This document shows positions 584-29,411 of a stretch of 30,282 nt of DNA, piece by piece. This stretch comes from a virus, in IMG/VR virus record IMGVR_UViG_3300023174_003828, positions 1-30,282 of that record; one strand, given 5' to 3'. Both the position numbers and the translations under genes were made by a program. The notes beneath the pieces are model-generated. The model saw only the letters and a list, made by a program, of their open reading frames with translations, searched no databases and was not told the origin of the DNA. How positions within the stretch are numbered: position 1 is the stretch's first letter; every line of letters starts with the position of its first letter.

Positions 584-608
584 AAAAAGCCCCTTAGGGG
601 CTTTTTTT
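584..608. terminator. Bidirectional intrinsic terminator
   Basis: A-run, GCCCC, TTA loop, GGGGC, T-run: a symmetric hairpin with a GC core and seven A/T pairs extending the stem. It gives a U-tract on both strands and sits exactly between two convergent genes (stops at 583 and 607), so it can stop transcription from either side. Confidence 0.92.
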
Positions 609-1446
609 ACGGATTGTTAACTGATTTGATAATCCAATAATCACTACTCATACTAGTATTTGTAACTACATTGAATGGCATATAGAAGTAACCCTTATGA
701 CCCCAATTTGCACCCCAACTGTTTCGTGCAATAAAAACTTTCTTACGCTTATCGTAACCTACAAGCAATACAGCATGACCTCCTAATAGTCGTTCACGTC
801 TAGTATTAGGATATGGCATATTACCGGTCCTTGCTACATGAGCAGACATAAAACTAGTATATACATTAAAACCCATTATAATTGGATAACCATTTGTTAA
901 TGCATCTATACAGCCATTAAAGTCTGATATTCTTTCATAGCGGTTTACTTTACGATTTAATGCATCATTCTTTGCTTCAGTAATAGGTTCTATTTTAAAT
1001 TTACTTATATCATATGGCCATAATGATTCTAAACTTGCACCATAATGATTTGTTACCTTAATACCATCACGTATATAAGCACCACTATCGTAGTTAACTG
1101 TTCCTAATATTAATCGTTCATAATAATATATGAATAGCCTGCTGATATCTTTATAATTACCACTACGTTTGTTTAGTAGTTCTATTGCACCTGCAATTGC
1201 TTGTCCGGTACAGCTACCTAGACTACCTTGATTTTCAATTGGGCTACAATAATTTCTTAAGTCTATTATATTAGGACTTGTTTTAGCTGTTACTTGATAT
1301 TTGTAATCTCTGGGGTCAAGTTTATCTGCTTTCCATATTAACGAAAATTTATCAAGTGTCCTAGGTATAACTTTTTTGTCGGTCGGAGGGTTAAAGGTAT
1401 GATCCTGACTAGTATCAATAATTGTACACGGGTCTTGTTTTGTCAT
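607..1446 (-). CDS. Papain-like cysteine peptidase (C1A family)
   Basis: 279 residues with the complete papain active site: oxyanion Gln73 in ENQGSLGSC, nucleophile Cys79, His224 in GGHAVLLVGY and Asn242 in NSWG. About 60 residues precede the catalytic domain (roughly 60-275); they look too short for a normal cathepsin propeptide. There is no signal peptide, so the enzyme would act in the host cytoplasm or inside the virion. It starts one base after the stop of the giant fibre-like gene and is surely co-transcribed with it, which suggests a role in late gene expression, fibre processing or virion-associated proteolysis. The fold and active site are clear; the target is inferred. No inhibitor gene is visible nearby. 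Confidence 0.9.
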   Translation of the reverse strand: MTKQDPCTIIDTSQDHTFNPPTDKKVIPRTLDKFSLIWKADKLDPRDYKYQVTAKTSPNIIDLRNYCSPIENQGSLGSCTGQAIAGAIELLNKRSGNYKDISRLFIYYYERLILGTVNYDSGAYIRDGIKVTNHYGASLESLWPYDISKFKIEPITEAKNDALNRKVNRYERISDFNGCIDALTNGYPIIMGFNVYTSFMSAHVARTGNMPYPNTRRERLLGGHAVLLVGYDKRKKVFIARNSWGANWGHKGYFYMPFNVVTNTSMSSDYWIIKSVNNP

Positions 1447-1447
1447 A

Positions 1448-4400
1448 TTATGCTAATCGTTCAATACTTACACTATACAAGTTAGCACTTGTATTAGCAA
1501 TCATACCAGTTACACGCCATGTGCCTGAACCAGCGCCTTGGTCAGTGATATTTAGTACTACTGTATCACCTGCACCACTAATAGCTCCGCTCATAGCAAA
1601 TCCATTACCTACACCAGTAACTATAGGTACATTAATCCAACTACTTACAGCCATACTACCTGAAATCATTGTTTGTGACTGTCCCGCCATCGTCATATTA
1701 CTTGACGCGGCACCAATGAATAATCTAGTAGGAGTTCCACCAACAAGTGCAGTTAGATTATCTAGTGTGACAACTGTATTAGAACCACTAATAGTATTAG
1801 CGCGGCGCACCATATTAGTACCAACGCCCTGGGCTGTCACGTTACCAGTAGCACTAATATTATTACCTGCAATGTTACCATTACCACTGATACCCACAGA
1901 GTTAATGATGCTAAACCCATTGATTGTTGGCGCAGGACTTGCACCGCTAGATACCAATCCACCTGATACAATAATTTGGCCGTTTGTAGGTAATGTTAAG
2001 TTACCGGTTGTGTCAAGTGTCCAGCTGGCAGTACCGTTAGTAGTTATTACAACATTACCATTAGAAGTAGGAATATCTACATTACTATTGCCATTAGCAA
2101 TTTTAGTAACACTGATATTGGTTACATTACTACCATCACCTTTTAGATATTGTGCACCGATGACATTGGCGTTAGCAAAGAAATCAACGTTAGTATTAAT
2201 TCTACCATACTGACTTAATTCTATATTATAAGTAGACCAATTAATATTACTAACTTGTTGTGGGAAATTGATAGCACCGTATATATCTATATTACCCGGA
2301 GTTCTTAAACTACCGTCTTTATTAAATATCCATTGCTTACTAGTACCGTTATTGGTAGTGATATAAACGTTATCACTAGAAGTAGGGACAGATACATTAC
2401 TATTGCCATTAGCAATAGTTGTTACACTTCCAGTCCAAGCTGTATTTTGTTCAGTAGCATCAGGGAATGTGATTGTTGCACCAGTACGTGATAATTCTAA
2501 TGAATTATTTGAGTGAGATATTCTACCAAATATATTACTAGTTAAGAATCCACCTGTACCAAATATAATATCTTTTGTTGTACCTTGATTACCAGTAGCT
2601 AATACTAAATTACCACCGCCATCTAATAGTGTTTGTCCAGGACCATATGATTGTGCAAATACGTATCCGTCACCTCCACCTGTAATTGTATAGTTAGCAT
2701 CTCCGAATCCTGAACTAGTAAAGCCCATATCTGCCCAACCACCGGTGTCATCACCGTGATGTCCTTGAGCCACCCAATCAGCACTACCGTTATCAGATAC
2801 ATTATTAATAACACCTTGAATATATGCAAAGTGGTTACTACTTGCTATTAACACTGCATGTTCAGTACCAGCTAAGGTGTTAGCACCTGGGCCAATGTAA
2901 ATACTGTTACCACCTAATACAACATTGTCCGGTGCATAAAATGTACCATCATCGGCAAATATAAATTCATGTACACCTGCATTAGCAAAAATAGTTAAAT
3001 TAGCATTTGCTGGACCTACAATATTACCTGGTGTTTGTAAGTTGCCACTATTATCAAATGTCCAAGCACTTGCTCCTGCTTCAACAAGAACATTACCGTA
3101 ACCTGATAAGCCTAAGGCTGATTGTCCACCTCTAACTGTAACTGCACCACCGTTAGCTGATTGACTATAACCACCTTGTAGCAATACATTGGCTCCATTT
3201 ATTCCTGTACCACTAGATTGACCACCTTGAATTTGAATATTACCACCGATACTATTGCCACCTGAGCCACCTGTGATATTGATATAGCCACCGGAACCGT
3301 TTGATCCATATCCACCTTCAAGATTGATATAACCACCAGTGTCGGCACCATCTCCGCCGGATAAATTGATATAGCCACCGCTACCGGTCGCCCCGTCACT
3401 ATCGCCTGCGTAAATCTTAATGTCACCACCGTTGTAATCACTATCACCACCCCAGACATAAACATCACCGCCCTCAGCGTATGTGCCGTTAGCACGTTGA
3501 CCTTGAATGATTAATCGTTGTGCTGAATCACCGGCTGCAGGAGTAGGCCCTGTAATGACTGCTTGTTTAGTTGAGTCACCAAACTGTAATGTTTGTGCTT
3601 GTTGATTACCACCATTATGTAAATCAACTGTTAGTGTTGGGAATATTGTCCCACCACCATTAGTAAAGGTCCAATTATAATCCTGCTCAGTAATAGGGTC
3701 ACTTACCCCAATGCCTACCAATTTATCTGCGCTACTTATTCCTACCCTAGCAATATTATTACCACCGGCATCATAACTGTTCAATCCTAAAAAGCCATTA
3801 GGACAAGTATTGAATTGAGTTGTATTGCCGTATATAGCAATATTAGCGTCATTCGGTAATGTAAGATTACCATCGCCGTCAAATGTCCAAACACCACCTT
3901 GAGTGCCAGTATTAGTATTCCAAGATTGTATACTGACGTTGCCGTTCCAACTGGTCATTACATTGGCTTGATTGTCTTTGCCTAATACAAGATTTGCGGC
4001 TGCACTAGCGACAAGGTGAAGGTCTGGACCAGATGATATAAAGATATCTAAATATGAACTAACATTAGCAGGATCTGGCTGTAAGTGTAAGTTTCCTGTA
4101 CCAATGATATTAATATTATCAAATGTAACATTTCCTGTGTTAGCACCACCACTAATTGATACTTGAGTACCGTTAGCATATTTTATATCAAAAGTGTTAC
4201 TCGGTAATGTTAGGTTACCGTCCGCGCCAAATGACCATGCCTTTACTGGTTGACTATTTCCGATATTACCTGCTAGTAAATTAACATTGCCGTAACTGTT
4301 ATATAATGATACTGCATTCCCGTCACCTTGTACAGGAATTGATAGCCCGGCTGTTTGACCACTAACTAAATCTGAATTGTTTACAATAATACCACTATTA

Positions 4401-5080
4401 GAGTAAATGATATTATTACTAAATCCAATATTACCTGTGTTAGCACCACCTCCACTTATCGGAGCAAACGCACCGTTACCATATAACACATTACTATTGC
4501 TACCGGTTAAATTAATTGTTGCTATATTCCCTAAACCAGAAACATTTGCGGCTGCTACTGCATTAGCTGTAGTAGCAAAACCAACAGCACCAGCAACATT
4601 AGCACCTGCTACTGCATTGGCTATGGTAGCAAATGTAGCTAAACTAACAGCACCGGATACATTAGAACCTGCTACAGAAAATGCTGTATTAGCAACGTTG
4701 GCATTTGGAACAAATCCAGAGACATTACTACCTCGAATGTTACTTAAGTTATTACCAGAACCGCTAAAGAAATTAGCTGTTGCTAAGTTACCTAAAGTAG
4801 CATTACCTGATGTAATATTACCTGTTACTGCTAAACTTGTTAATGTACCAACACTTGTGATATTTGGTTGAGCATTAGTTAATACCGTATTTGCTATTGT
4901 TGCTCTTGTGGCTGCTACATAGTTACCACCGGCACCAGCTAATACAACATTGGCAATATTTCCTAATACAGTTTTTTCTGTAGTAGGAGTGCCTGCCATA
5001 TTGACTACTGGTATAACTGTAGAACTAACTAAGTTTGCGCCAATATTGGTTAGTTCTGTAATTTTAATTGTTGTTGTCAT
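1448..5080 (-). CDS. Giant repetitive tail-fibre-like protein
   Basis: 1210 residues, low complexity, rich in Gly, Asn, Ser, Thr and Ala. The N-terminal third carries short repeats such as GSNVSG, ANVAG and TTANAV, with 'WTFDGDGNLTLPN'-type segments recurring through the protein. These are features of phage fibre/adhesin proteins with beta-helical shafts. Residues about 530-660 form a glycine-rich run of GGYINL-type units about 16-17 residues apart. The last 150 residues are less repetitive and may be the tip. The start is supported by AGGAAATAAAA directly before the ATG. It is followed at once by the papain-like protease and preceded by a smaller fibre-like gene, together forming a late operon. 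The exact structural role is inferred from composition and context; receptor binding is plausible. Confidence 0.8.
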   Translation of the reverse strand: MTTTIKITELTNIGANLVSSTVIPVVNMAGTPTTEKTVLGNIANVVLAGAGGNYVAATRATIANTVLTNAQPNITSVGTLTSLAVTGNITSGNATLGNLATANFFSGSGNNLSNIRGSNVSGFVPNANVANTAFSVAGSNVSGAVSLATFATIANAVAGANVAGAVGFATTANAVAAANVSGLGNIATINLTGSNSNVLYGNGAFAPISGGGANTGNIGFSNNIIYSNSGIIVNNSDLVSGQTAGLSIPVQGDGNAVSLYNSYGNVNLLAGNIGNSQPVKAWSFGADGNLTLPSNTFDIKYANGTQVSISGGANTGNVTFDNINIIGTGNLHLQPDPANVSSYLDIFISSGPDLHLVASAAANLVLGKDNQANVMTSWNGNVSIQSWNTNTGTQGGVWTFDGDGNLTLPNDANIAIYGNTTQFNTCPNGFLGLNSYDAGGNNIARVGISSADKLVGIGVSDPITEQDYNWTFTNGGGTIFPTLTVDLHNGGNQQAQTLQFGDSTKQAVITGPTPAAGDSAQRLIIQGQRANGTYAEGGDVYVWGGDSDYNGGDIKIYAGDSDGATGSGGYINLSGGDGADTGGYINLEGGYGSNGSGGYINITGGSGGNSIGGNIQIQGGQSSGTGINGANVLLQGGYSQSANGGAVTVRGGQSALGLSGYGNVLVEAGASAWTFDNSGNLQTPGNIVGPANANLTIFANAGVHEFIFADDGTFYAPDNVVLGGNSIYIGPGANTLAGTEHAVLIASSNHFAYIQGVINNVSDNGSADWVAQGHHGDDTGGWADMGFTSSGFGDANYTITGGGDGYVFAQSYGPGQTLLDGGGNLVLATGNQGTTKDIIFGTGGFLTSNIFGRISHSNNSLELSRTGATITFPDATEQNTAWTGSVTTIANGNSNVSVPTSSDNVYITTNNGTSKQWIFNKDGSLRTPGNIDIYGAINFPQQVSNINWSTYNIELSQYGRINTNVDFFANANVIGAQYLKGDGSNVTNISVTKIANGNSNVDIPTSNGNVVITTNGTASWTLDTTGNLTLPTNGQIIVSGGLVSSGASPAPTINGFSIINSVGISGNGNIAGNNISATGNVTAQGVGTNMVRRANTISGSNTVVTLDNLTALVGGTPTRLFIGAASSNMTMAGQSQTMISGSMAVSSWINVPIVTGVGNGFAMSGAISGAGDTVVLNITDQGAGSGTWRVTGMIANTSANLYSVSIERLA

Positions 5081-5098: not shown

Positions 5099-5713
5099 TT
5101 AATTAAATACTGCACCATTATTACCGATACAGAACCATTTGCTCGCTATATATTGTAATGTACATGCATCGCCGGTGTTACTAAATCTTATTGTACCTGA
5201 TCCTCCCCAGGCTGGGTTAGTCACAGTAATAACCATATTACCACCTGAACTAAGCATCATAAATGTTTTTATTTGTCCTACTGCGCCAGCCGCTAATGTT
5301 GCGGTACTTGCAGTGGTCGTAGTAAAATAACTAGTGGTTACCGATACATTAACAGCGGAAGTGGTAGTTAAATTCTGACTACCACTTAGTAATAATTGTC
5401 CAGTAATAGCTACATTTGCCGGCAAATCTACCGTCAATGTTCCGGTTGTAGTTAATGGACTTCCAGTAACAGTTAAATTGTTACTAGTTAAACTTACATT
5501 GGTTACACCTGCATTATTTATATTTACAGTACCTGCTGTAGCATTTGCTGTAATAGTTACCCCATTCCCGGTAAATGTGTTGTATGGGCTGGCATTTGTA
5601 AATAACGTATTAAAGTTATCTTTTGTTTTGTTAAATGCTGTGTATAGGCTATCGCTACCGGTAGATTCGTTTTGTAATCCAATATTAATTACTTGTAGTC
5701 CTGAAATTGCCAT
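5099..5713 (-). CDS. Fibre-like or virion surface protein
   Basis: 204 residues, Thr/Asn/Val-rich. The N-terminus (LQVINIGLQNESTGSDSLY, then AFNKTKDNFNTLF) resembles N-terminal attachment segments of phage fibre proteins. A beta-rich repetitive middle follows, with NLTVTGSPLTTTGTLTVDLP, and the last 60 residues (about 145-204) read like a compact C-terminal domain. It shares composition with the downstream 1210-aa protein, and the two are separated by 18 bases, so they probably act in the same fibre. The ribosome site AAGGA before the ATG lies in the 3' arm of a hairpin with a late-promoter motif in its loop (see 5721-5747), pointing to late-only translation. The function is inferred. Confidence 0.75.
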   Translation of the reverse strand: MAISGLQVINIGLQNESTGSDSLYTAFNKTKDNFNTLFTNASPYNTFTGNGVTITANATAGTVNINNAGVTNVSLTSNNLTVTGSPLTTTGTLTVDLPANVAITGQLLLSGSQNLTTTSAVNVSVTTSYFTTTTASTATLAAGAVGQIKTFMMLSSGGNMVITVTNPAWGGSGTIRFSNTGDACTLQYIASKWFCIGNNGAVFN

Positions 5714-5720
5714 AATTTAA

Positions 5721-5747
5721 TCCTTATTATGTATTTATCAATAAGGA
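5721..5747 (-). promoter_or_regulatory. RBS-masking hairpin with late-promoter motif in the loop
   Basis: On the minus strand TCCTTATT pairs perfectly with AATAAGGA across an 11-base loop, GATAAATACAT. The 3' arm holds the AAGGA Shine-Dalgarno of the gene starting at 5713. The loop holds GATAAATA (5739-5732), a match to the T4-like late promoter NATAAATA. A transcript reading in from upstream would mask the SD; one starting just after GATAAATA would lack the 5' arm and leave it free. The inverted repeat and motif are seen directly; the switch is inferred. Confidence 0.65.
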
Positions 5748-5762
5748 CTAAATGTAATATCA

Positions 5763-6089
5763 TCAGGTTGGACTAAAACTTGACCCGCATCCGCATGTAG
5801 TTTCCGCATTAGGATTATTGATTTTGAACTGCGATCCGTTCAAATCTTCAACATAATCTATGCTTGCATTGTGTAAATATTGTGCGGAAATACTGTCTAC
5901 TAACATACTTAAAGATCCTGCAGGTATCTCAAAATCATCGTCATTTTGTTCTTCATCTATAGTAAAACCATATTGCATTCCACTACATCCTCCACCTTGA
6001 ACAAATACACGTATCTTAGCTTTTGGATTGTTTTCTTCTGCTAATATATCAGCTATCTTTATAGAAGCATTTTCTGTTATTTCTATCAT
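5763..6089 (-). CDS. erpA: A-type iron-sulfur carrier, ErpA/IscA family
   Basis: 108 residues covering the whole HesB/IscA domain. The three conserved cysteines are present: Cys35 in [12 protein letters not shown] and Cys99/Cys101 in TTCGCGSSF. The [14 protein letters not shown] ending is closest to ErpA of proteobacteria. Such proteins carry 2Fe-2S or 4Fe-4S clusters from the Isc or Suf scaffold to apo-enzymes in the cytoplasm. The start overlaps the stop of the superoxide dismutase gene by ATGA, so the two are translationally coupled. Together they form an iron-sulfur/oxidative-stress pair that would protect host metabolism or phage Fe-S enzymes during infection. Length is normal and no key residue is missing. 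Confidence 0.93.
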
Positions 6090-6640
6090 AAACTCTTACC
6101 CCACCTGGTATTAATCACATTCCAATTGATGATTTTCCATTGCTCTTTTAGATACTTTTTCTTGTCACTTCCGTAATCTAATAAAAACGCATGTTCCCAC
6201 CAATCTATCAATAGTAATATATCATTTCTTACTTCATGATTTTTGATTGTTTTAATACTACCGTCATATGCTAAATAAATCCAACCAGATCCTTGGATCT
6301 TCATTGCTTCTTCTTCAAACTTTGATTTCATATCATCAAATGTTTTATAATGTTTATTGATAAATCCGTACATAGGGCCGTTTGGCTTGTTGTTATTTCT
6401 AACTTCACGGAATTGTGGGAATAATGTGTTGTGCAAGAAAGCACCTGCATAATTAAAATCTTTGTCACCCTCACCTTTGTTATAGCGTTCGGCATAGCCT
6501 TTAGCTAGTTTATCATAATGTAGGTCAAGGGTATCCTGGCTTAATACAGGTTTAACCTCACTAGCGGTGAAGTTTAGTGGTATTATTTCTATGTCTTGAG
6601 GCTTACCCTTATCCTCAAGTAATTGAATTATATCTCTCAT
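6086..6640 (-). CDS. Fe/Mn superoxide dismutase
   Basis: 184 residues aligning by eye with SodA/SodB. All four metal ligands are present: His41 (LDLHYDKL), His70 ([10 protein letters not shown]), Asp146 and His150 ([11 protein letters not shown]). Other landmarks are GSGWIYL and the DWWEH block. The gateway-His position is Leu45, and the residue that hydrogen-bonds the metal-bound solvent (Gln146 in E. coli MnSOD) appears to be His135 in KNHE, so metal preference is not clear. It converts superoxide to peroxide and oxygen in the cytoplasm. It overlaps the erpA-like gene by ATGA. The start codon lies inside a small hairpin that also holds a late-promoter motif, and no normal Shine-Dalgarno is visible. 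Catalytic activity is likely but unproven. Confidence 0.88.
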
Positions 6641-6659
6641 ACATATATTTATCGTATGA
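6637..6659 (-). promoter_or_regulatory. Start-codon hairpin with late-promoter motif in the loop
   Basis: On the minus strand TCATAC and GTATGA form a 6-bp stem around the 11-base loop GATAAATATAT. The ATG of the superoxide dismutase is in the 3' arm. GATAAATA (6653-6646) fits the late motif NATAAATA. The loop has the same length and nearly the same sequence as the one at 5721-5747. A start just after the motif would give a nearly leaderless mRNA, a weak point of this reading. Confidence 0.45.
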
Positions 6660-6673
6660 AAGACTATTGGGGA

Positions 6674-6883
6674 TTAACGTCGGCGCACGATACGGCCTTT
6701 AGTTAAGTCATATGGACTAAATTCTAATTCTACTGTATCCCCAAGTAGAACTTTAATATCATGCTGGCGCATCTTGCCAGAGATATAACCCATTACATTT
6801 GTGCCATTTACGGTGACACGGAACATGGCGTTAGGCAACACATCAGTTACCGTACCGTCCATTCGTAAACCTTCTTCTTTCAA
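6674..6883 (-). CDS. infA: Translation initiation factor IF-1
   Basis: 69 residues matching bacterial IF-1 (usually 71-73) along its full length: the S1-like OB fold with [39 protein letters not shown]-1 binds the 30S A site and helps IF-2 and IF-3 choose the initiator tRNA. The start is TTG at 6883, supported by AAGGAAAC at proper spacing; the first ATG (6862) would cut off conserved N-terminal residues. The TTG overlaps the stop of GIY-YIG gene I (TTGA), whose last codons contain the infA ribosome site. An IF-1 in a phage is uncommon, though translation factors are known from very large phages. It may steer initiation towards phage mRNAs. Confidence 0.95.
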
Positions 6884-7746
6884 TTTTGTTTCCTTTTTTT
6901 ACCTTCTTTAGAATTGTGAAAGACCCAGTCTTTCTGTTCATCTGAACCCAGTTGTGAATAAAAAATTTCTTTTTCTATTTTTTTAATTTCACCTATTTTA
7001 TTAATACATACAATTTTACCTTTTAGTTTTTCTTTAGTTTCAGCAGTAAACACTTGAAGTTTTCTTTTATCTTTTATTTTTTGTTTAGTTTCATCTTTCA
7101 TTGGTCCTTTATTTTGTTGGGCCAATTTCATTTTTTCAATGGTTTCGGGTGTTTTTTTCTTACCTAAAAGTTTTTCACTTATTTCAGGTCTTTTTCTACC
7201 TCTTAGTTTTTCAGCAGTTTTTTTGACTGATTCTGGGTTTCTTTTTTTCCCGATGTTGGCTTCTGATAGTAGTTTCTTTGTGGCATCGCTTCTTGGCAAT
7301 TTATTTCCGGGATTAACACCCTTTTTTCCTGTATTCCAAGGTAGTTGACCTTGTTTAGATGAAGATATTTTTTGTTTTGTTTCTTCTGTGTGAGGTTCAT
7401 AATTATTTCTACCAGTATCACCACCGTCTAAACCATTTTCTAATACTTGATTAGCCCAAATCTTTTTACCACTTTCATTTATAGCATTTACAATATTGTT
7501 TTCTTTTGAAAAGTTTACAGCAACTTCTACGCATTTTTCTTTATTTTCAAAAAAACCTATTATTTCAGTAGATATATCCTTGCCATGAATTTTTAAGTGG
7601 TTTAACCAATATTCACCTGACCCAGTATAAGAATAAGGATTAGATTTGACAGTTTTTCCAAAATATTTTAAACCGGTAATGTTATGCGTTTTAATATAAA
7701 GATAGGTAGGCATAAATTTCTTCATTAATATATTTATGCCTACCAT
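6880..7746 (-). CDS. GIY-YIG homing endonuclease I with NUMOD3 repeats
   Basis: Residues about 13-105 form a GIY-YIG-type nuclease domain (YLYIKTHN then KYFGKT). Residues about 118-245 are a Lys-rich string of NUMOD3-type DNA-binding units with TKQKIS, GKKR, PESVKK and KTPETIEKM motifs, as in free-standing phage homing enzymes. The N-terminal domain is nearly the same as that of GIY-YIG II (23493-24161), showing recent duplication or shared descent. Starts are ambiguous: ATG 7746 has GGAAA upstream, while ATG 7725 and ATG 7713 lie inside a 13-bp hairpin. The 3' end overlaps infA by TTGA, as expected of a mobile gene inserted between upstream genes and infA. It probably cleaves a related phage genome at the insertion site. 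Confidence 0.88.
7705..7744 (-). promoter_or_regulatory. 13-bp hairpin and late-promoter motif at GIY-YIG I start
   Basis: On the minus strand GGTAGGCATAAAT and ATTTATGCCTACC are perfect 13-bp inverted arms around a 14-base loop. CATAAATA (7738-7731) fits NATAAATA and straddles the 5' arm and loop. ATG 7713 lies in the 3' arm and ATG 7725 in the loop. A late transcript starting about 7 bases after the motif would lack the 5' arm. This is the arrangement known for the T4 I-TevI gene; here it is inferred from sequence. Confidence 0.65.
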
Positions 7747-8186: not shown

Positions 8187-8215
8187 ATTATAGCAAAATA
8201 TGTATTATTTGTCAA
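8187..8215 (-). promoter_or_regulatory. Consensus sigma70-type promoter
   Basis: The minus strand reads TTGACA (8215-8210), a 17-base spacer, then TATAAT (8192-8187). This is a perfect match at both boxes, with a start expected near 8180, some 26 bases before the ATG of the gene at 8154. The -10 flank TATAATAGAA also occurs in three of the four promoter repeats near 28 kb. Confidence 0.9.
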
Positions 8216-10759: not shown

Positions 10760-10842
10760 ATATGCTCTTTCTATGTATTACACTATATTATTTGATATAA
10801 AATGACTAAATATATGTATAATTATATTTATCGGAGCACATA
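10760..10842. promoter_or_regulatory. Divergent promoter region before the curli block
   Basis: A very AT-rich 83-base gap. On the plus strand TTGATA (10792-10797) and TATAAT (10817-10822) could drive csgF, but the 19-base spacer is long. The csgF ribosome site GGAG (10833-10836) is well placed. On the minus strand GATAAATA (10831-10824) fits the late motif and could drive the membrane-protein group. Boxes are seen; use is inferred. Confidence 0.5.
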
Positions 10843-11325
10843 ATGAAAAGAGGTATAGCAATAAGTACCCTGACGATGCTCACTATATCAGCCTTTGCGG
10901 CTGAATTACAGCATCAGTTTAATAGCCCTAGCTTCAGTGGTTCAGGATATAGTAGCCATGTCCTAACACTAAAACAGTTAGAAGATTTACAAAAAGACAA
11001 AAATAAAGCACTTGCAGACACATTAAAAGCAAAAGCTGAAAGTGAAGCACTAAACACCCCTCAAGCTAAGTTTTTAGCTAACTTAGAATCAAGAATTTAT
11101 AGTCAATTGGCAAAGCAATTGACTGATAGTATGTTTGGTGAAGGATCAACATGCACTACAAAGGGCGTTATTTGTGGATCTATACCTGATTTAGGTGGCA
11201 ATAGTATCACTTGGAAATTAGGTGATGGTAGTGATAATGGATTAATTATTATCACAATTACAAACAATGGCAATCCTTCACAAGTAACTATAATGAAAGT
11301 ACCAGCTGGAACATTTTATTTCTAA
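10843..11325 (+). CDS. csgF: Curli assembly factor CsgF
   Basis: 160 residues with a Sec signal peptide (cleavage near Ala19-Ala20, SAFAA|E). The mature start ELQHQFNSPSFSGSG matches the conserved 'FQFRNPNFGG' N-terminus of CsgF, the part that inserts into the CsgG pore in E. coli. The middle 'LESRIYSQLAKQL' helix and the C-terminal strand region (LIIITITNNGNPSQVTIMKVP) also fit; the protein is slightly longer than E. coli CsgF (138). In bacteria CsgF forms the outer ring of the secretion channel and couples nucleator to polymer growth. Its stop and the csgG start overlap as TAATG. GGAG before the ATG fixes the start. It is the first gene of the plus-strand block. Confidence 0.92.
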   Translation: MKRGIAISTLTMLTISAFAAELQHQFNSPSFSGSGYSSHVLTLKQLEDLQKDKNKALADTLKAKAESEALNTPQAKFLANLESRIYSQLAKQLTDSMFGEGSTCTTKGVICGSIPDLGGNSITWKLGDGSDNGLIIITITNNGNPSQVTIMKVPAGTFYF

Positions 11326-12326
11326 TGAATAAACTACTAATATTATCATTTGTTGTTATGTTATCAGGTTGTGCTTTAAGTAGCAAAACTAACAGTCTAG
11401 TTACAGGTGAACAATTTGATGAACCTATAGTTGAACAGAATGTTTATATGAAAAAGGACGATAATAAATTACGTCCTCCGGCTGATGGTCCAATTGCAAT
11501 TGCAGTATATGGATTTGCTGATAAGACCGGGCAACGTAAAAGCATTCAAAATATTGCTAGTTTAAGTTCAGCAGTAACTCAAGGTGCTGAAAGTTATCTA
11601 ATCAAAGCATTACAGGACGTAGGTGATGCTAAATGGTTTATTGTATTAGAACGTGTTGGATTAGAAAATATAATTAAAGAACGACAGATGATACGTCAAG
11701 CACGTGAGCTATATCAAGGTCGTGATGCCAAACCTTTACCACCAATGGTATTCGCCGGAGTATTAGTTGAAGGTGGTATTATTGGATATGATAGTAATAC
11801 ATTGACGGGCGGATCCGGAGTAAGATTATTAGGTATAGGAACAAGTACACAATATCAAAGTGATACAGTAACCGTCAATTTACGAACAGTAAGTGTTAGT
11901 ACCGGTGAAGTATTAACCAGTGTAACCGTTACAAAAACCGTATTAAGTTATATGGACAAAGTAGGTGTATTGCGTTTTAAGGCAGAAGGCACAAGTAGCG
12001 TTGAAGCTGAAACTGGTGCTAGTATTAATGAGAGTATTAATAAAGCCACAAGTATAGCTATACAAGCGGCAGTTATAGATACAATACGTGAAGGCGCTAG
12101 AAAAGGACATTGGAATTTTAAACAAGAGGAGAAAAAAAATGAGTTGGTTCAAGAGAAAACCCCACCTAAAGACACCCCCAAAATTACAACCGCACCATCT
12201 AAGCCCAATATCGGAAAAACTATTGAAGGAAACGAAAAAAGAAGTTTCTGGAGTAAAATCAAAGATGAAATTACAAGATTCACAATTGAGCATAGTGACG
12301 GAAAAGAAGAAGAATTAACAGATTAA
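11325..12326 (+). CDS. csgG: Curli secretion channel lipoprotein CsgG
   Basis: 333 residues. A lipoprotein signal with lipobox LSGC (Cys16) indicates acylation and outer-membrane insertion. The CsgG domain spans about 55-265 with IAIAVYGFADKTGQRK, FIVLERVGLENIIKERQ, GVLVEGGIIGYDSN and TVTVNLRTVSVSTGEVL, all family landmarks. CsgG forms a nonameric beta-barrel pore that exports curli subunits. The last about 65 residues are a Lys/Pro/Glu-rich extension not present in E. coli CsgG, probably periplasmic and disordered. It is coupled to csgF by a one-base overlap. Finding the export pore and CsgF together with two curlin-repeat proteins makes a functional amyloid export system likely. Confidence 0.95.
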   Translation: MNKLLILSFVVMLSGCALSSKTNSLVTGEQFDEPIVEQNVYMKKDDNKLRPPADGPIAIAVYGFADKTGQRKSIQNIASLSSAVTQGAESYLIKALQDVGDAKWFIVLERVGLENIIKERQMIRQARELYQGRDAKPLPPMVFAGVLVEGGIIGYDSNTLTGGSGVRLLGIGTSTQYQSDTVTVNLRTVSVSTGEVLTSVTVTKTVLSYMDKVGVLRFKAEGTSSVEAETGASINESINKATSIAIQAAVIDTIREGARKGHWNFKQEEKKNELVQEKTPPKDTPKITTAPSKPNIGKTIEGNEKRSFWSKIKDEITRFTIEHSDGKEEELTD

Positions 12327-12438
12327 CATATGTTTGTTAGATTATTCCTACAGTCTAACAAATATCTAAAAAAGAAGTAGGAAATAATAAGGGATAAATC
12401 CCAAGGAGCGTAATCAGGATAACTGATTACTGTAAAAA
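12327..12438 (+). promoter_or_regulatory. Structured leader before the first curlin gene
   Basis: This 112-base gap has three hairpins: TTTGTTAGA/TCTAACAAA (12333-12341 with 12354-12362); GGGA-TAAA-TCCC (12391-12402); and GTAATCAG/CTGATTAC (12410-12430, loop GATAA). The only good Shine-Dalgarno, AAGGAG (12403-12408), is between hairpins two and three, 30 bases from the ATG. Folding the third hairpin brings it to about 9 bases. This looks like a structured ribosome-binding site and possible control point. Confidence 0.65.
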
Positions 12439-13206
12439 ATGAAGCATTATAAAAATTATAAGACGGTGCTTTCAATATTAGCATTATCATTGCTAAGTGT
12501 AACTAGTATGGCACAGGTATTAAATACCGCAACAGGGCCAAATAAAGTTTATATTGAACAAATTGGTAACACTAATACTATTACACTTGAACAAACAGGT
12601 GGTACTAATAATATTGGAGGTGTAGCCAACGTTACCCCCAGCAATACAAACTATGCCACAATAACCGGCAATAGTAACGTTGTTGCTATGGTTCAAAAAG
12701 GTGATAACAACTTAGGTCAATATAATATTAGAGGTAACAATAACGAATATACAAGTACTGTTACTGGAAATAATAACAAAACTAAGTTAACTGTCGGTGA
12801 TGCCCAAAACACAAATAACCTACGTAACATTATTACTGAAACCATTACTGGTAATGACAATACTGTTATTCAAAATATTATTGGCAACGATATATTAAGT
12901 ACATTAACTATTACAGGTGACACCAATGAAGTTACTAAGGATCTAAAAAGCACTAACGGTAGAAGTGACATTAGTATCACCGGTGATAATAACAAACTTG
13001 ACATTGAACAAAATGATGCTAGTGGTGCGAACGGTCATAATTTGAAAAAAGTTATTCAAGGTAACACTAATAGCATTGTAACTCAACAGCAAGGTACTAA
13101 TGATACTACTATTGATATTAAAGCCAATGGTGACAATAATACCATTACAGTTCGTACAACAAGCGCGGCTACCATTGCAAACCCAAGAACAGCAGTAGCA
13201 AGATAA
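12439..13206 (+). CDS. Curlin-repeat amyloid subunit 1 (CsgA/CsgB-like)
   Basis: 255 residues: Sec signal peptide to about residue 25 (SVTSMAQ), then a serial beta-solenoid-like sequence with repeats of about 22-25 residues rich in Asn, Thr, Gly, Ile and Gln (YIEQIGNTNTITLEQTG, GDNNLGQYNI, GNNNKTKLTV, GDNNTITV). The Q-x-G-x-x-N pattern is the curlin signature. The mature N-terminus VYIEQIGN is shared with subunit 2 (14463-14930). It is preceded by the export genes csgF and csgG, so it is the likely major exported fibre subunit. Translation starts after an unusual hairpin-separated ribosome site. It is about 100 residues longer than E. coli CsgA. Confidence 0.85.
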   Translation: MKHYKNYKTVLSILALSLLSVTSMAQVLNTATGPNKVYIEQIGNTNTITLEQTGGTNNIGGVANVTPSNTNYATITGNSNVVAMVQKGDNNLGQYNIRGNNNEYTSTVTGNNNKTKLTVGDAQNTNNLRNIITETITGNDNTVIQNIIGNDILSTLTITGDTNEVTKDLKSTNGRSDISITGDNNKLDIEQNDASGANGHNLKKVIQGNTNSIVTQQQGTNDTTIDIKANGDNNTITVRTTSAATIANPRTAVAR

Positions 13207-13207
13207 A

Positions 13208-14296
13208 ATGCGTAAGTTTGTGTTGTTCTTATGCTTGTTTACAAGTATTAGTACTTGGGCAAGTATAGGAAATGTATCAGAATTAACCGGGGCAGCCGGC
13301 GAAATATCCCGCGGTAAACAAAAAGTTGTGGGTAATAAAGGCGCCGGCATTGAAAGCAACGATATATACACTACTAGAAACGGCACAGTACAATTAGCCT
13401 TTAAGGATGATACAAAAGTAAAAATTACAGAAAACAGTCGTCTACTAATAGATGATTTTGTTTTTGACCCTAACAAAAGTGATGCAGGTAGATTAGCACT
13501 TAAAGTTGGTATGGGAACAGTACGTTATGCTAGTGGACAAATAGCAAAAACAAACACACAACAAGTAGCAATTAAAACACCAACTGCAACTATTGCAGTT
13601 CGTGGTACAGATTTTACAATGACAGTTGATGAAGCAGGACAGTCATTAATAGTTTTAGTTCCAAGTTGTAAAGACAATGAAAAAGTAAAAGATTACGAAT
13701 TAGAAGAAAACAAATGTAGAGTAGGACGCATTGAAGTAGAGACCTTAGTTGGTAAAGTTATATTGGACCAAGCATTTCATGGTACATTTGTAGCAAGTAA
13801 TAACATTTCACCTACCACACCGGTCGTTATGAATACAATTGAAGCAAAACTAACAAACAACTTGATTATTGTAAAGCCAATGGAGATTGTTAAAGCAGTT
13901 AATAATCAAAATGGTAAAAGTAAAAAAGAACAACAAGAACTAGAAGAAGAACAAAACAATAGATTAACCAACATAGTTAAAAAACAAAGTGTTGAAGAAC
14001 AAGCAAAGATTATTGCCGCTAATAGTTTTAAACCCGATCCAAACTGTAATGCAACAACTACTGTTTGTATCTTATGGGAAAAAAGTGACGGTGAATTATT
14101 AGCTAGAGGTAGAGCTATAGCGTATCGTAATAGTGAAAACGAACATTATGCTGAAGTTAAAACACAGGGTTATATGTCAAACACACTAGTTACCATTGTA
14201 CACAATGACACCATAGCATCAGAACTTTTAGGTGATGGTCAGCCCGGTGGAAATATAGTGTATATCAAACAAACTGCGGGATTAAAAAGAAGATGA
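13208..14296 (+). CDS. Secreted FecR-domain protein
   Basis: 362 residues with a Sec signal peptide (cleavage near residue 18, STWAS). Residues about 20-160 form a FecR domain (TGAAGEISRGKQ, GTVQLAFKDDTKVKITENS, IAVRGTDFTMTVD). A Lys/Glu/Gln-rich coiled region (about 235-270) and a C-terminal beta domain follow. Stand-alone secreted FecR proteins are often found beside CHASE2-cyclase genes in bacteria, and one is present in this operon. It starts one codon after the curlin gene and ends in an ATGA overlap with a 57-aa gene. Its job is unknown; periplasmic or surface binding linked to curli or to the cyclase sensor is inferred. Confidence 0.85.
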   Translation: MRKFVLFLCLFTSISTWASIGNVSELTGAAGEISRGKQKVVGNKGAGIESNDIYTTRNGTVQLAFKDDTKVKITENSRLLIDDFVFDPNKSDAGRLALKVGMGTVRYASGQIAKTNTQQVAIKTPTATIAVRGTDFTMTVDEAGQSLIVLVPSCKDNEKVKDYELEENKCRVGRIEVETLVGKVILDQAFHGTFVASNNISPTTPVVMNTIEAKLTNNLIIVKPMEIVKAVNNQNGKSKKEQQELEEEQNNRLTNIVKKQSVEEQAKIIAANSFKPDPNCNATTTVCILWEKSDGELLARGRAIAYRNSENEHYAEVKTQGYMSNTLVTIVHNDTIASELLGDGQPGGNIVYIKQTAGLKRR

Positions 14297-16035: not shown

Positions 16036-18087
16036 ATGATTAAAAAAATAATTCTCAGTCCTTGGACAGCACTACTAACACTAGTGCTGATTCTTTCTGT
16101 GCGTATCGCAGATCCTCAATTCGTAGAATCAGTTCGTTTACGTTATTTTGATACTCTTATCACTAATAAAACCCCAACAGAAAACAACATCTATACAGTA
16201 AATATAGATGAAGCAACACTAGACAAGTATGGTCAATGGCCACTACCTCGTAATGAATACGCAAAAATAATAGAAGATTTATATAAGCGCAACGCTGGTC
16301 TTGTTGTGTTCAATGTACTAATGCCTGATACTGATAGAAACGGTCAAGACAGTAAGTTAGCAAATACAATGAAACAGTATCCTGTTATTCTTCCCAATGT
16401 ACCTAGCGATAAAACAAAAAACACTCCACGTAATCCAGGTGCGGCTGTACTAGCCCCTGAGTGGCTAGATCAAATAGTTCAATATCCCGGTATCATTGCT
16501 AACGTGCCTTTATTAGAAAACAGTGCGTATGGTGTAGGTACTGTTAATACATTACCAGAGATTGATGGTGTCAATAGACGTATACCATTGATTGTCAGTG
16601 TTGATGGTAAACTCTATCCAAGTTTAAGTATGGAAGTATTAAGAGTAGCCGCAGATGATACAACATTCCAAGTTAAACTAAGCGAGAATGGTGTAGAGAA
16701 AATGCGTATACCAAAGTTCGGTCCTATTACTACTGACAACTTAGGACGTATTTGGATTGATTACAGTCAACAAAGTAAATCAGTAAGTTTGATGGATCTA
16801 CCAAAAGACTTCGGTGGTGCTATTGTTATTGTAGGTTTAACAGCAAGTGGATTAAACAACCCAGTACCAACAAGTAAAGGTAGTGTATGGCCGCATGATG
16901 TTCAAGCAAGTGTAATAGGTACAATGTTTAACAAAGTTGTTATTGTAAGACCTGATTATGCAGATGGTGTAGAACTTATCGCTATACTAGTGTTAGGTTT
17001 ATTAGTTATATTTTTATCAAGGTGGACATATGCTTTTATCCCAGTTATTCTTGTTCTTACTTCTGGTCATTTTATTGCGTCATATCTATTCACATCCAAT
17101 CTATGGCTCTATGATATTACCGCCCCTATTATTGGCGTTGGTTTGGTTTATCTTCACGCTTATACTGTTAAGTTTGTAAGTGAATTCTTACAAAAGCAAC
17201 AGATTAAAAAACAGTTTGGTAGTTACGTTAATCCAACAATCGTTGAACGACTACAGAAAGATCCTAGTCTAATTAAACTTGGTGGTGAGAAACGTGAATT
17301 ATCTATCGTTATGACTGACTTGCGTGGCTTCACTAGCTTGGGCGAATCATTTGGCGATGATGTTGAAGGACTAACACAGATTATGAATGACTACATGACT
17401 GCACTAAGTGTTCCTGTATTGAAGAACGATGGTACATTAATTAAGTTTATTGGTGATGCAAGTTTGCATGTCCATGGCGCCCCATTAGATGATGTTAAAC
17501 ATGCGGTAACTGCTGTTAATACCGCTATGCAAATGATTGATGCTATTGAAGAATTCAATAAAGAGTTGACAGCTAATGGTCGTCCACCAGTTGGTATGGG
17601 CGCAGGTGTTAATACTGGTGAAACGTTGATTGGTAACATTGGTGCTAAGACTAAGTTTGGTTATGATGTATTAGGCGACAGTGTTTCTACTGCGGCTAGA
17701 TTAGAAGGACAAACTAAAGGATATGGTGTATTATGTATCATTGGCCCTAATACTAATGAACAGGTTAAAGATGAAATATTTACACTAGAACTAGATTGTA
17801 TTGCTGTAAAGGGTAAAACAATAGGATTAAATATCTTTACCCCATTAAAGACTGATCCAAATAGTATGGCGGAATATCTATCAGCACGTGAGATACATGA
17901 TTTGATGATAGATTACTACCGTGAGCAGAAATGGGACCAAGCATTACATATGATAGACCAACTTAAGGGTGAATTTGATTCGCATATGGACCACTATTAT
18001 GATATAATGATAGAACGAATAGGAGAACTACGTGAAAGCAATTTACCTAACGATTGGGATGGTGTGTATAGGGCTACTAGTAAGTAA
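16036..18087 (+). CDS. CHASE2-domain membrane adenylate cyclase (class III)
   Basis: 683 residues. One N-terminal membrane helix (about 8-22), an extracytoplasmic CHASE2 sensor (about 28-300; IDEATLDKYGQWPLPRNEY and IVGLTASGL are typical), two or three membrane helices (about 312-378), a linker, then a class III cyclase domain (about 420-605). Metal residues Asp428 and Asp474 and ATP-selecting Lys470 and Asp544 are present. Arg555 of the transition-state pair is kept, but its usual Asn partner is Ser551 (GDSVSTAARLE), which may lower activity. It would make cAMP in the cytoplasm in response to a periplasmic signal, perhaps with the FecR-type protein upstream. A membrane cyclase in a phage-like context is very unusual. 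Confidence 0.92.
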   Translation: MIKKIILSPWTALLTLVLILSVRIADPQFVESVRLRYFDTLITNKTPTENNIYTVNIDEATLDKYGQWPLPRNEYAKIIEDLYKRNAGLVVFNVLMPDTDRNGQDSKLANTMKQYPVILPNVPSDKTKNTPRNPGAAVLAPEWLDQIVQYPGIIANVPLLENSAYGVGTVNTLPEIDGVNRRIPLIVSVDGKLYPSLSMEVLRVAADDTTFQVKLSENGVEKMRIPKFGPITTDNLGRIWIDYSQQSKSVSLMDLPKDFGGAIVIVGLTASGLNNPVPTSKGSVWPHDVQASVIGTMFNKVVIVRPDYADGVELIAILVLGLLVIFLSRWTYAFIPVILVLTSGHFIASYLFTSNLWLYDITAPIIGVGLVYLHAYTVKFVSEFLQKQQIKKQFGSYVNPTIVERLQKDPSLIKLGGEKRELSIVMTDLRGFTSLGESFGDDVEGLTQIMNDYMTALSVPVLKNDGTLIKFIGDASLHVHGAPLDDVKHAVTAVNTAMQMIDAIEEFNKELTANGRPPVGMGAGVNTGETLIGNIGAKTKFGYDVLGDSVSTAARLEGQTKGYGVLCIIGPNTNEQVKDEIFTLELDCIAVKGKTIGLNIFTPLKTDPNSMAEYLSAREIHDLMIDYYREQKWDQALHMIDQLKGEFDSHMDHYYDIMIERIGELRESNLPNDWDGVYRATSK

Positions 18088-28703: not shown

Positions 28704-28763
28704 GTCCTTTATTTAACTGTCTAAGATTGTATTATAGACCCAAAATGATTTATTGTCAAATTT
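28704..28763 (-). promoter_or_regulatory. Repeated promoter/leader, copy 4
   Basis: The minus strand has TTGACA (28759-28754), 17 bases, TATAAT (28736-28731), and the same leader with AAAGGACTC. Slightly more diverged in the spacer than copies 1-3. The clpP stop lies at its upstream edge. Confidence 0.9.
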
Positions 28764-29358
28764 AGGACATGTTGCGTTTTTGCAACACACTATCAGCTAG
28801 GCCATACGCCACTGCCTCATTTGCACTCATAAAAAAGTCACGTTCCATGTCTTTTGCAAGTTCCTCAAACGTCTTTCCGGCACTATTGTGGTCAACATAG
28901 ATTTGTGTTAGAGATTTTTTCATAGCCAAAATCTCTTTAACTTGAATTTCCATATCAGTAGCTTGACCACGTGCTCCACCACTTGGTTGATGAATCATAT
29001 GTCGTGCATTGGGAAGGATCATTCGTTTGCCTTTTGCACCTGCTTGACCTAACAAACTACCCATTGAACAAGCTTGACCCATTACAATAGTTTGTACATC
29101 TGGTTTAATAAATTGCATACAATCATAGATTGCCATACCAGCTGTTACTGAGCCACCTGGACTATTGATATAGATACTGATGTCCTTATCTGAATCTTCA
29201 CTTTCCAAATATAGTAGTTGAGCAACGATTAGATTTGCCATTTGGTCATGTACCTCACCTTCAAGCAAAATAACACGGTCACGTAGTAAACGACTGTAAA
29301 TGTCATAACTACGTTCGCCTTTACTTGTTTGTTCTAATACCATTGGGACTAAGCTCAT
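28762..29358 (-). CDS. clpP: ClpP-type ATP-dependent protease subunit
   Basis: 198 residues, full bacterial ClpP length. Catalytic triad: Ser98 (GQACSMGS), His123 (MIHQPSGG) and Asp170 (KDMERDFF). [16 protein letters not shown] and GLADSVL are family blocks. N-terminal residues lack an obvious propeptide. ClpP rings degrade proteins fed by ClpX or ClpA, so the phage subunit would work with host unfoldases or form mixed rings; no unfoldase gene is in the window. Start 29358 has AAGGAAACAAT upstream. Its likely promoter lies in the first codons of the divergent gene. Confidence 0.94.
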
Positions 29359-29382: not shown

Positions 29383-29411
29383 TTGCGATAAATACTTAAT
29401 GGTGCTATAAT
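29383..29411 (+). promoter_or_regulatory. Promoter for the divergent plus-strand gene
   Basis: TTGCGA (29383-29388), 17 bases, TATAAT (29406-29411) on the plus strand. GATAAATA (29387-29394), the late motif, overlaps it, so early and late starts may both occur here. The start codon is at 29444. Confidence 0.65.

Follow-up and report, generated by a model that had tools for sequence, protein, structure and literature searches.

A late-promoter box in the loop of a predicted ribosome-binding-site hairpin before a probable fibre gene of uncultured T4-like phages

The probable tail-fibre gene that starts at position 5713 on the minus strand of a 30,282-nt phage genome fragment (IMG/VR record IMGVR_UViG_3300023174_003828; hereafter the window) is preceded by a predicted hairpin that pairs its Shine–Dalgarno (SD) sequence and holds a late-promoter box in its loop. 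Comparative tests of sequence and predicted folding place the hairpin far beyond chance, and we consider it highly probable that it serves as a translational gate on the fibre gene, set by the site at which the transcript starts. The mechanism of this switch is already known from T4; the gene families in which we find it are new.

Between iscA (6089-5763) and the 5713 gene, the minus strand reads ATTTAGTCCTTATT-GATAAATACAT-AATAAGGATTAAAT-T-ATG, in which ATG (5713-5711) is the start codon of the controlled gene. The 5' arm (5740..5753, with the anti-SD core TCCTT at 5747-5743) and the 3' arm (5715..5728) form a single 14-bp stem, 5753-5740 with 5728-5715, with one G–U pair and an 11-nt loop (5729..5739); an extra closing pair, G5739–U5729, is possible atop the stem. 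The preliminary description of this DNA had given the minus-strand letters and coordinates of the hairpin exactly, and the 8-bp core that it named (TCCTTATT, 5747-5740, with AATAAGGA, 5728-5721) is present, although the true stem is 14 bp long. Its statement that the stem hides the AAGGA of the 5713 gene also holds, as AAGGA (5725-5721) lies wholly within the 3' arm. The loop does contain the late promoter motif that had been proposed for it, in the form GATAAATA (5739-5732), the late-box form that precedes many structural genes of relatives. Words matching TATAAATA with at most one mismatch occur in the window at the frequency expected by chance. The box is assigned a promoter role from its position and from the relatives; all promoter calls made here combine consensus and position. 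Of two other copies of GATAAATA considered as late promoters, the one at 29387(+) is probably not one, lying inside a sigma-70 promoter (TTGCGA-17-TATAAT, 29383-29411, plus strand), and the one at 10825(-) faces no nearby start. The hairpin RNA is predicted to fold at -12.7 kcal/mol (z -2.56), and 4 of 200 whole-region shuffles were as good. When only the 30-nt 5' flank was shuffled, 83 of 5000 sequences (1.7%) folded as well as the window hairpin, which taken alone is therefore suggestive and unproven.

The box of a T4 late promoter occupies positions -13 to -6. With this geometry, a late RNA would begin about 6 nt downstream of the box, inside the 3' arm (predicted start 5725..5726, minus strand), and its leader would be approximately (U)AAGGAUUAAAUU-AUG. 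Folding predictions give the SD an unpaired probability of 0.00 in five long RNAs and of 0.92-0.97 in late RNAs starting at 5727-5725. Host-type sigma-70 RNA polymerase would start at about 8187 early in infection and continue through IF-1, SOD and iscA to the fibre gene, and in this long RNA the 14-bp hairpin is predicted to pair the SD AAGGA with upstream UCCUU, which would block the ribosome from starting on the fibre gene. Later, a gp55-type sigma would recognise GATAAATA, whose DNA sits in the hairpin loop, and the RNA made from there, lacking the 5' arm, would leave the SD free for synthesis of the fibre protein.

By its consensus, a perfect TG-extended sigma-70 promoter, TTGACA-17-TATAAT, at 8187..8215 on the minus strand, 2.5 kb before the fibre gene, would probably give rise to the long early transcript. 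Among the other listed loci and genomes whose upstream sequence spans 2.7 kb or more, several of the loci sharing contigs, all have a perfect sigma-70 promoter at a distance of 1.6-2.9 kb, apart from relative G005, in which a match with one mismatch lies at 1.6 kb. No terminator-like site occurs between the sigma-70 promoter and the fibre gene in the window or in relatives G001, G002 and G004, or in the 3 kb upstream of the G005 fibre gene. A homologue of the gp55-type late sigma is encoded by G001 (phrog_12791, 1.6e-70; phrog_234, 5.5e-22); the 30,282-nt window, a genome fragment, has no gp55 gene. The relatives encode T4-type gp23, gp20, gp17, gp43, gp18, gp41 and gp44, and megablast returned no close sequenced phage for the window.

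Relatives of the junction, all on metagenomic contigs, were gathered through the downstream protein, through the promoter and ribosome-binding site with the 5' arm ignored, and through the upstream iscA protein; the N-terminal pattern of the family is M(A/S)I..xxIxIGxxNE...SDSLYTAF or its cousin IDIGxxGNDGTGDSIRESF. A TAAATA box is present in 73 of the 86 distinct junctions, and dereplication at 80% identity yielded 39 promoter-bearing junctions. Among these 39, SD masking has a mean of 0.78 and exceeds 0.5 in 82%, compared with a mean of 0.44 and 48% when their 5' arms are dinucleotide-shuffled; five have masking below 0.15 despite the box (L020, L089, L279, L308 and L355). None of the eight promoter-less junctions is masked (scores 0.00-0.20; Fisher p 2e-5). 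Swapping 5' arms between junctions weakened the predicted fold from an MFE of -14.7 kcal/mol with the own arm to -10.8 kcal/mol (z -8.3), and 0 of 50,000 permutations were as good (p<2e-5); such permutation p-values depend on dereplication, which was varied from 70 to 90% for the fibre family with the result unchanged. The swap test scored on SD masking alone was weak (p 0.03-0.04 at strict dereplication) because TCC and GGA are common to the junctions, and the swap of stem energies is thus the informative test.

Alignment of 27 fibre-family junctions in one register shows the 14 pairs kept in 89% of cells, while slid registers pair at 35-52%. Cells in which both partners have changed number 19, against 3.6 in shuffles (0/500), and the covariation score reaches 0.196, with slid registers at 0.069 or below. 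Examples of covarying arm pairs are TTTAGTCC/GGATTAAA, TTTGATCC/GGATCAAA, TTTCGTCC/GGACGAAA and TTCAGTCC/GGACTGAA, and two distant junctions remake the hairpin in other letters, L259 as GTTTTAAACCCG-CTAAATAAGTAAAA-CGGGTTTAAAAC and L286 as CTCTGTTCAG-TGATAAATA-CTGAATAGAG. Covariation of the arms in related phages, which the preliminary description had suggested looking for, is thus found by both the swap test and the aligned junctions, and the hairpin withstood a comparison for the contrary pattern, arms that are not conserved where the flanking sequence is. Arm covariation, the predicted SD accessibility, the upstream sigma-70 promoter and the late sigma of the relatives together support the earlier proposal that the junction follows the plan of T4 gene e.

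G–U pairs are common in these stems and alternate with A–U and G–C at single stem positions across relatives, which points to a role in RNA over one at the level of DNA. An inverted repeat that works as DNA, either as an operator or as a cruciform aiding promoter opening, would produce similar complementarity and would agree with a promoter box in the loop, but it is very unlikely given the G–U alternation and the lack of such a repeat around the boxes of most other late genes.

The position of iscA bears on a further reading, in which the hairpin mainly couples translation of the fibre gene to that of iscA, the terminating ribosome opening the 5' arm for the next one. In the compact junctions, 24 of the 36 classified, iscA runs through the 5' arm, which codes for its C-terminus (SFSPY), and its TGA stop shares bases with the box, so a ribosome ending iscA could indeed open the hairpin. 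We nevertheless regard coupling as the main function as improbable, for three reasons: (i) The non-compact junctions have 12-20 nt between the iscA stop and the box, and the stop in the window (5765-5763) lies 9 nt before the stem, a distance at which the ribosome footprint leaves at most the stem base within reach. (ii) Promoter-less iscA–fibre junctions, which would depend most on coupling, are without the hairpin. (iii) The adaptor gene described below carries the device too, with a gene other than iscA before it. A stable stem right after iscA could also be a 3'-end feature of the SOD–iscA transcript, such as a terminator, processing site or stabiliser, that overlaps the ribosome-binding site incidentally. 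This has only a slight probability, since the hairpin lacks a U tract, is not called as a terminator-like site, is absent from the junctions that lack the late promoter, and pairs the SD in both gene families.

A second, unrelated gene family of the relatives has the device as well. A 13-bp version of the hairpin precedes a late gene at 152284(+) in G002, the product of which matches the head-tail adaptor family phrog_211 (9e-22); the corresponding gene in G005, at 121590(+), likewise has its promoter within a hairpin. Across 80 relatives (upstreams L427-L506), the box is present in 48 of 48 distinct upstreams, a count that leans towards finding it because the choice of start favoured nearby in-frame ATGs with box and SD. 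The arm-swap test is independent of that choice, and in this family it separates an own MFE of -16.3 from a swapped MFE of -11.9, a gap of 4.4 kcal/mol (p<2e-5). Masking ranges from 0.71 to 1.00 (mean 0.97) among 29 dereplicated upstreams, in stems that are unrelated in sequence (GTTTCCTGAT/ATCAGGAAAC, GTGTTACCTGAT/ATTAGGTAACAC and AAACTCCAGAT/ATCTGGAGTTT). A chance match between the arms, in DNA rich in A+T with TCC ahead of the box and AAGGA following it, might have been suspected from the shuffled window flanks that fold as well (1.7%) and from shuffled arms, which mask the SD nearly half the time. It is contradicted by the covariation and arm-swap results from both gene families and by the absence of the hairpin at promoter-less junctions, and we judge it exceedingly unlikely. 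Compensatory evolution before two unrelated virion families, combined with absence where the late promoter is missing, shows that selection acts on the switch itself.

At the G001 junction equivalent to that of G002 152284(+) (331618-331625, minus strand), the downstream gene is a different one (MSITITGGISFSGG...), and the box is again within a hairpin, with arms AATTGTTGCCC/GGGTAACAATT. The device seems to outlast replacement of the gene that it precedes.

The hairpin is confined to some genes. In 31 other late-gene families with promoter and ribosome-binding site (one representative each), there is no excess of masking (own 0.38 vs swapped 0.38); the combination of a late box and an SD therefore does not by itself produce the device. 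Genome-wide enrichment of masking is weak in scans of G001, G002, G004, G005 and T4, part of the T4 signal stemming from back-to-back promoters that share complements of the ribosome-binding site, and a general excess at late genes was accordingly rejected as weak or absent. As a control, the method recovers T4 e and I-TevI and, in part, 49; for soc it finds the AUG masked rather than the SD. The idea that unmasked genes have an upstream terminator and masked genes do not was unsupported (9 of 56 unmasked, 1 of 9 masked and 9 of 77 leaderless genes).

SOD, probably also a late gene, is predicted to be gated differently from the fibre gene, as a leaderless message. Its box, GATAAATA at 6646..6653 (minus strand), lies 5 nt before the SOD ATG, and about 45 distinct homologous SOD starts mostly keep a box-to-ATG spacing of 4-7 nt. 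An inverted repeat around the SOD box, TCATAC/GTATGA, is unconserved; the short spacing is what persists. For open reading frames of at least 90 codons, the distance from TAAATA to ATG has a sharp peak at 4-5 nt, with 30 genes in G001, 30 in G002, 23 in G004 and 28 in G005, whereas every other distance under 12 nt has 0-5 genes; in T4, two genes fall at 4-5 nt. With the stricter box [GT]ATAAATA, Poisson p-values range from 2e-6 to 9e-21 across the four relatives, whereas PA5oct and T4 have no significant spacing peak. The Pelagibacter phage HTVC008M (KC465899) has seven genes at exactly 5 nt (p 3e-6). Twenty box-adjacent families recur in at least two genomes, the large terminase being at 6 nt in all four, and an SD-like 4-mer occurs in only 4 of 124 box-adjacent candidates. 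By T4 geometry, the RNAs of these genes would start at or beside the AUG, and we predict that SOD and 23-30 late genes per relative have leaderless late mRNAs.

A leaderless mRNA would be a second way of keeping read-through RNA silent. In this group of large T4-like phages, start-site-dependent translation may form a genome-wide second layer of late control, with dozens of late genes readable only from RNA of their own promoters, being either leaderless or SD-masked otherwise, and with read-through early RNA silent for virion genes; we see the case for this broader proposal as evenly balanced. The literature searched on leaderless late genes in T4-like phages gave T4 work only and no description of such genes, which does not show that there is no such paper. 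In Deinococcus-Thermus, leaderless genes have a -10 element adjoining the start codon (PMC12340547). The likeness to SOD and to dozens of late genes of the relatives is in a box a few nucleotides before the ATG and no SD; the element here is a phage late box with its own sigma, and the leaderless status is predicted.

Masking of the ribosome-binding site as an early/late switch is used by e (lysozyme), soc, 49 and I-TevI of T4 (PMC3014915) and by I-TevII, I-TevIII, segB and Aeh1 mobE (PMC2988022), all of them late genes on long early or middle transcripts (PMC2988022). The same situation is predicted here, and the hairpins described here can therefore be read as further members of this kind. 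As in T4 gene e, the SD of the long RNA lies in a stem, and a late box in or beside the stem would give a late RNA without the 5' arm. The further feature of the T4 switch, a long early or middle transcript that covers the late gene, is predicted here. The differences are that the genes are a probable fibre anchor and a head-tail adaptor, that the phages belong to another group (relatives of ~350 kb), that the box is GATAAATA rather than TATAAATA, and that the switch is predicted from sequence, with covariation over dozens of natural variants. In the PeSL (promoter-early stem-loop) cassettes of T4-type phages, an early promoter is flanked by a stem-loop. The junctions described here similarly join promoter and stem-loop in a short intergenic element, but their promoter is of the late type and lies inside the loop, and their stem masks the SD, which sets them apart from PeSL elements. 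For cyanophages, the literature searched on a promoter-in-hairpin arrangement gave T4 work only. Earlier accounts of the T4 switch concern a handful of genes, all in T4 or phages closely related to it, and a large uncultured T4-like group now supplies ready natural variants of it. Its occurrence suggests that excluding virion proteins from the early phase merits a dedicated device, and together with the predicted leaderless genes it makes a testable claim on how early and late translation are separated in these phages.

The hairpin-controlled gene (5099..5713, minus strand) encodes a protein of 204 aa that has no Pfam or PHROG match and no relative among sequenced phage records. Its AlphaFold model has a pLDDT of 77.8 and a pTM of 0.46, and among its best PDB matches are the phage CBA120 tailspike TSP4, in its N-terminal part, and T4 gp9, the long-tail-fibre connector, at weak E values of 0.01-0.04. 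The next gene in the same direction (1448..5080, minus strand) encodes a glycine/asparagine-rich repetitive protein of 1210 aa, a probable fibre without a family match. A formal family assignment of the 204-aa gene thus failed; the weak fold matches and the repetitive gene behind it make a fibre or adhesin anchor or connector likely. The probable virion genes that the preliminary description had placed after the hairpin are to this extent weakly supported, by fold and neighbourhood and not by a Pfam or PHROG match. Directly behind the 1210-aa gene lies a papain-type C1 peptidase (607-1446, minus strand; PF00112).

Upstream on the same strand are the IscA/ErpA-type Fe-S carrier (5763..6089; PF01521, 3.4e-20), the Fe/Mn superoxide dismutase SOD (6086..6640; PF02777, 5.2e-23), translation initiation factor IF-1 (6674-6883; PF01176, 7.7e-21) and, between IF-1 and the early promoter, a NUMOD3/homing-endonuclease-type gene (6880-7746; PF07460, phrog_314). 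The phage-encoded IF-1 adjoins the predicted leaderless SOD and is near the masked fibre gene; that it might help translation to start on unusual mRNAs is no more than speculation. Elsewhere in the window are a curli set on the plus strand (10843-14296) comprising CsgF (PF10614), CsgG (PF03783, 2.9e-51), a curlin-repeat protein (PF07012) and a FecR-domain protein, a plus-strand protein with CHASE2 and adenylate/guanylate cyclase catalytic domains (16036-18087; PF05226, 9e-40; PF00211, 3.4e-17), and a ClpP-type protease on the minus strand (28762-29358; PF00574, 2.5e-81).
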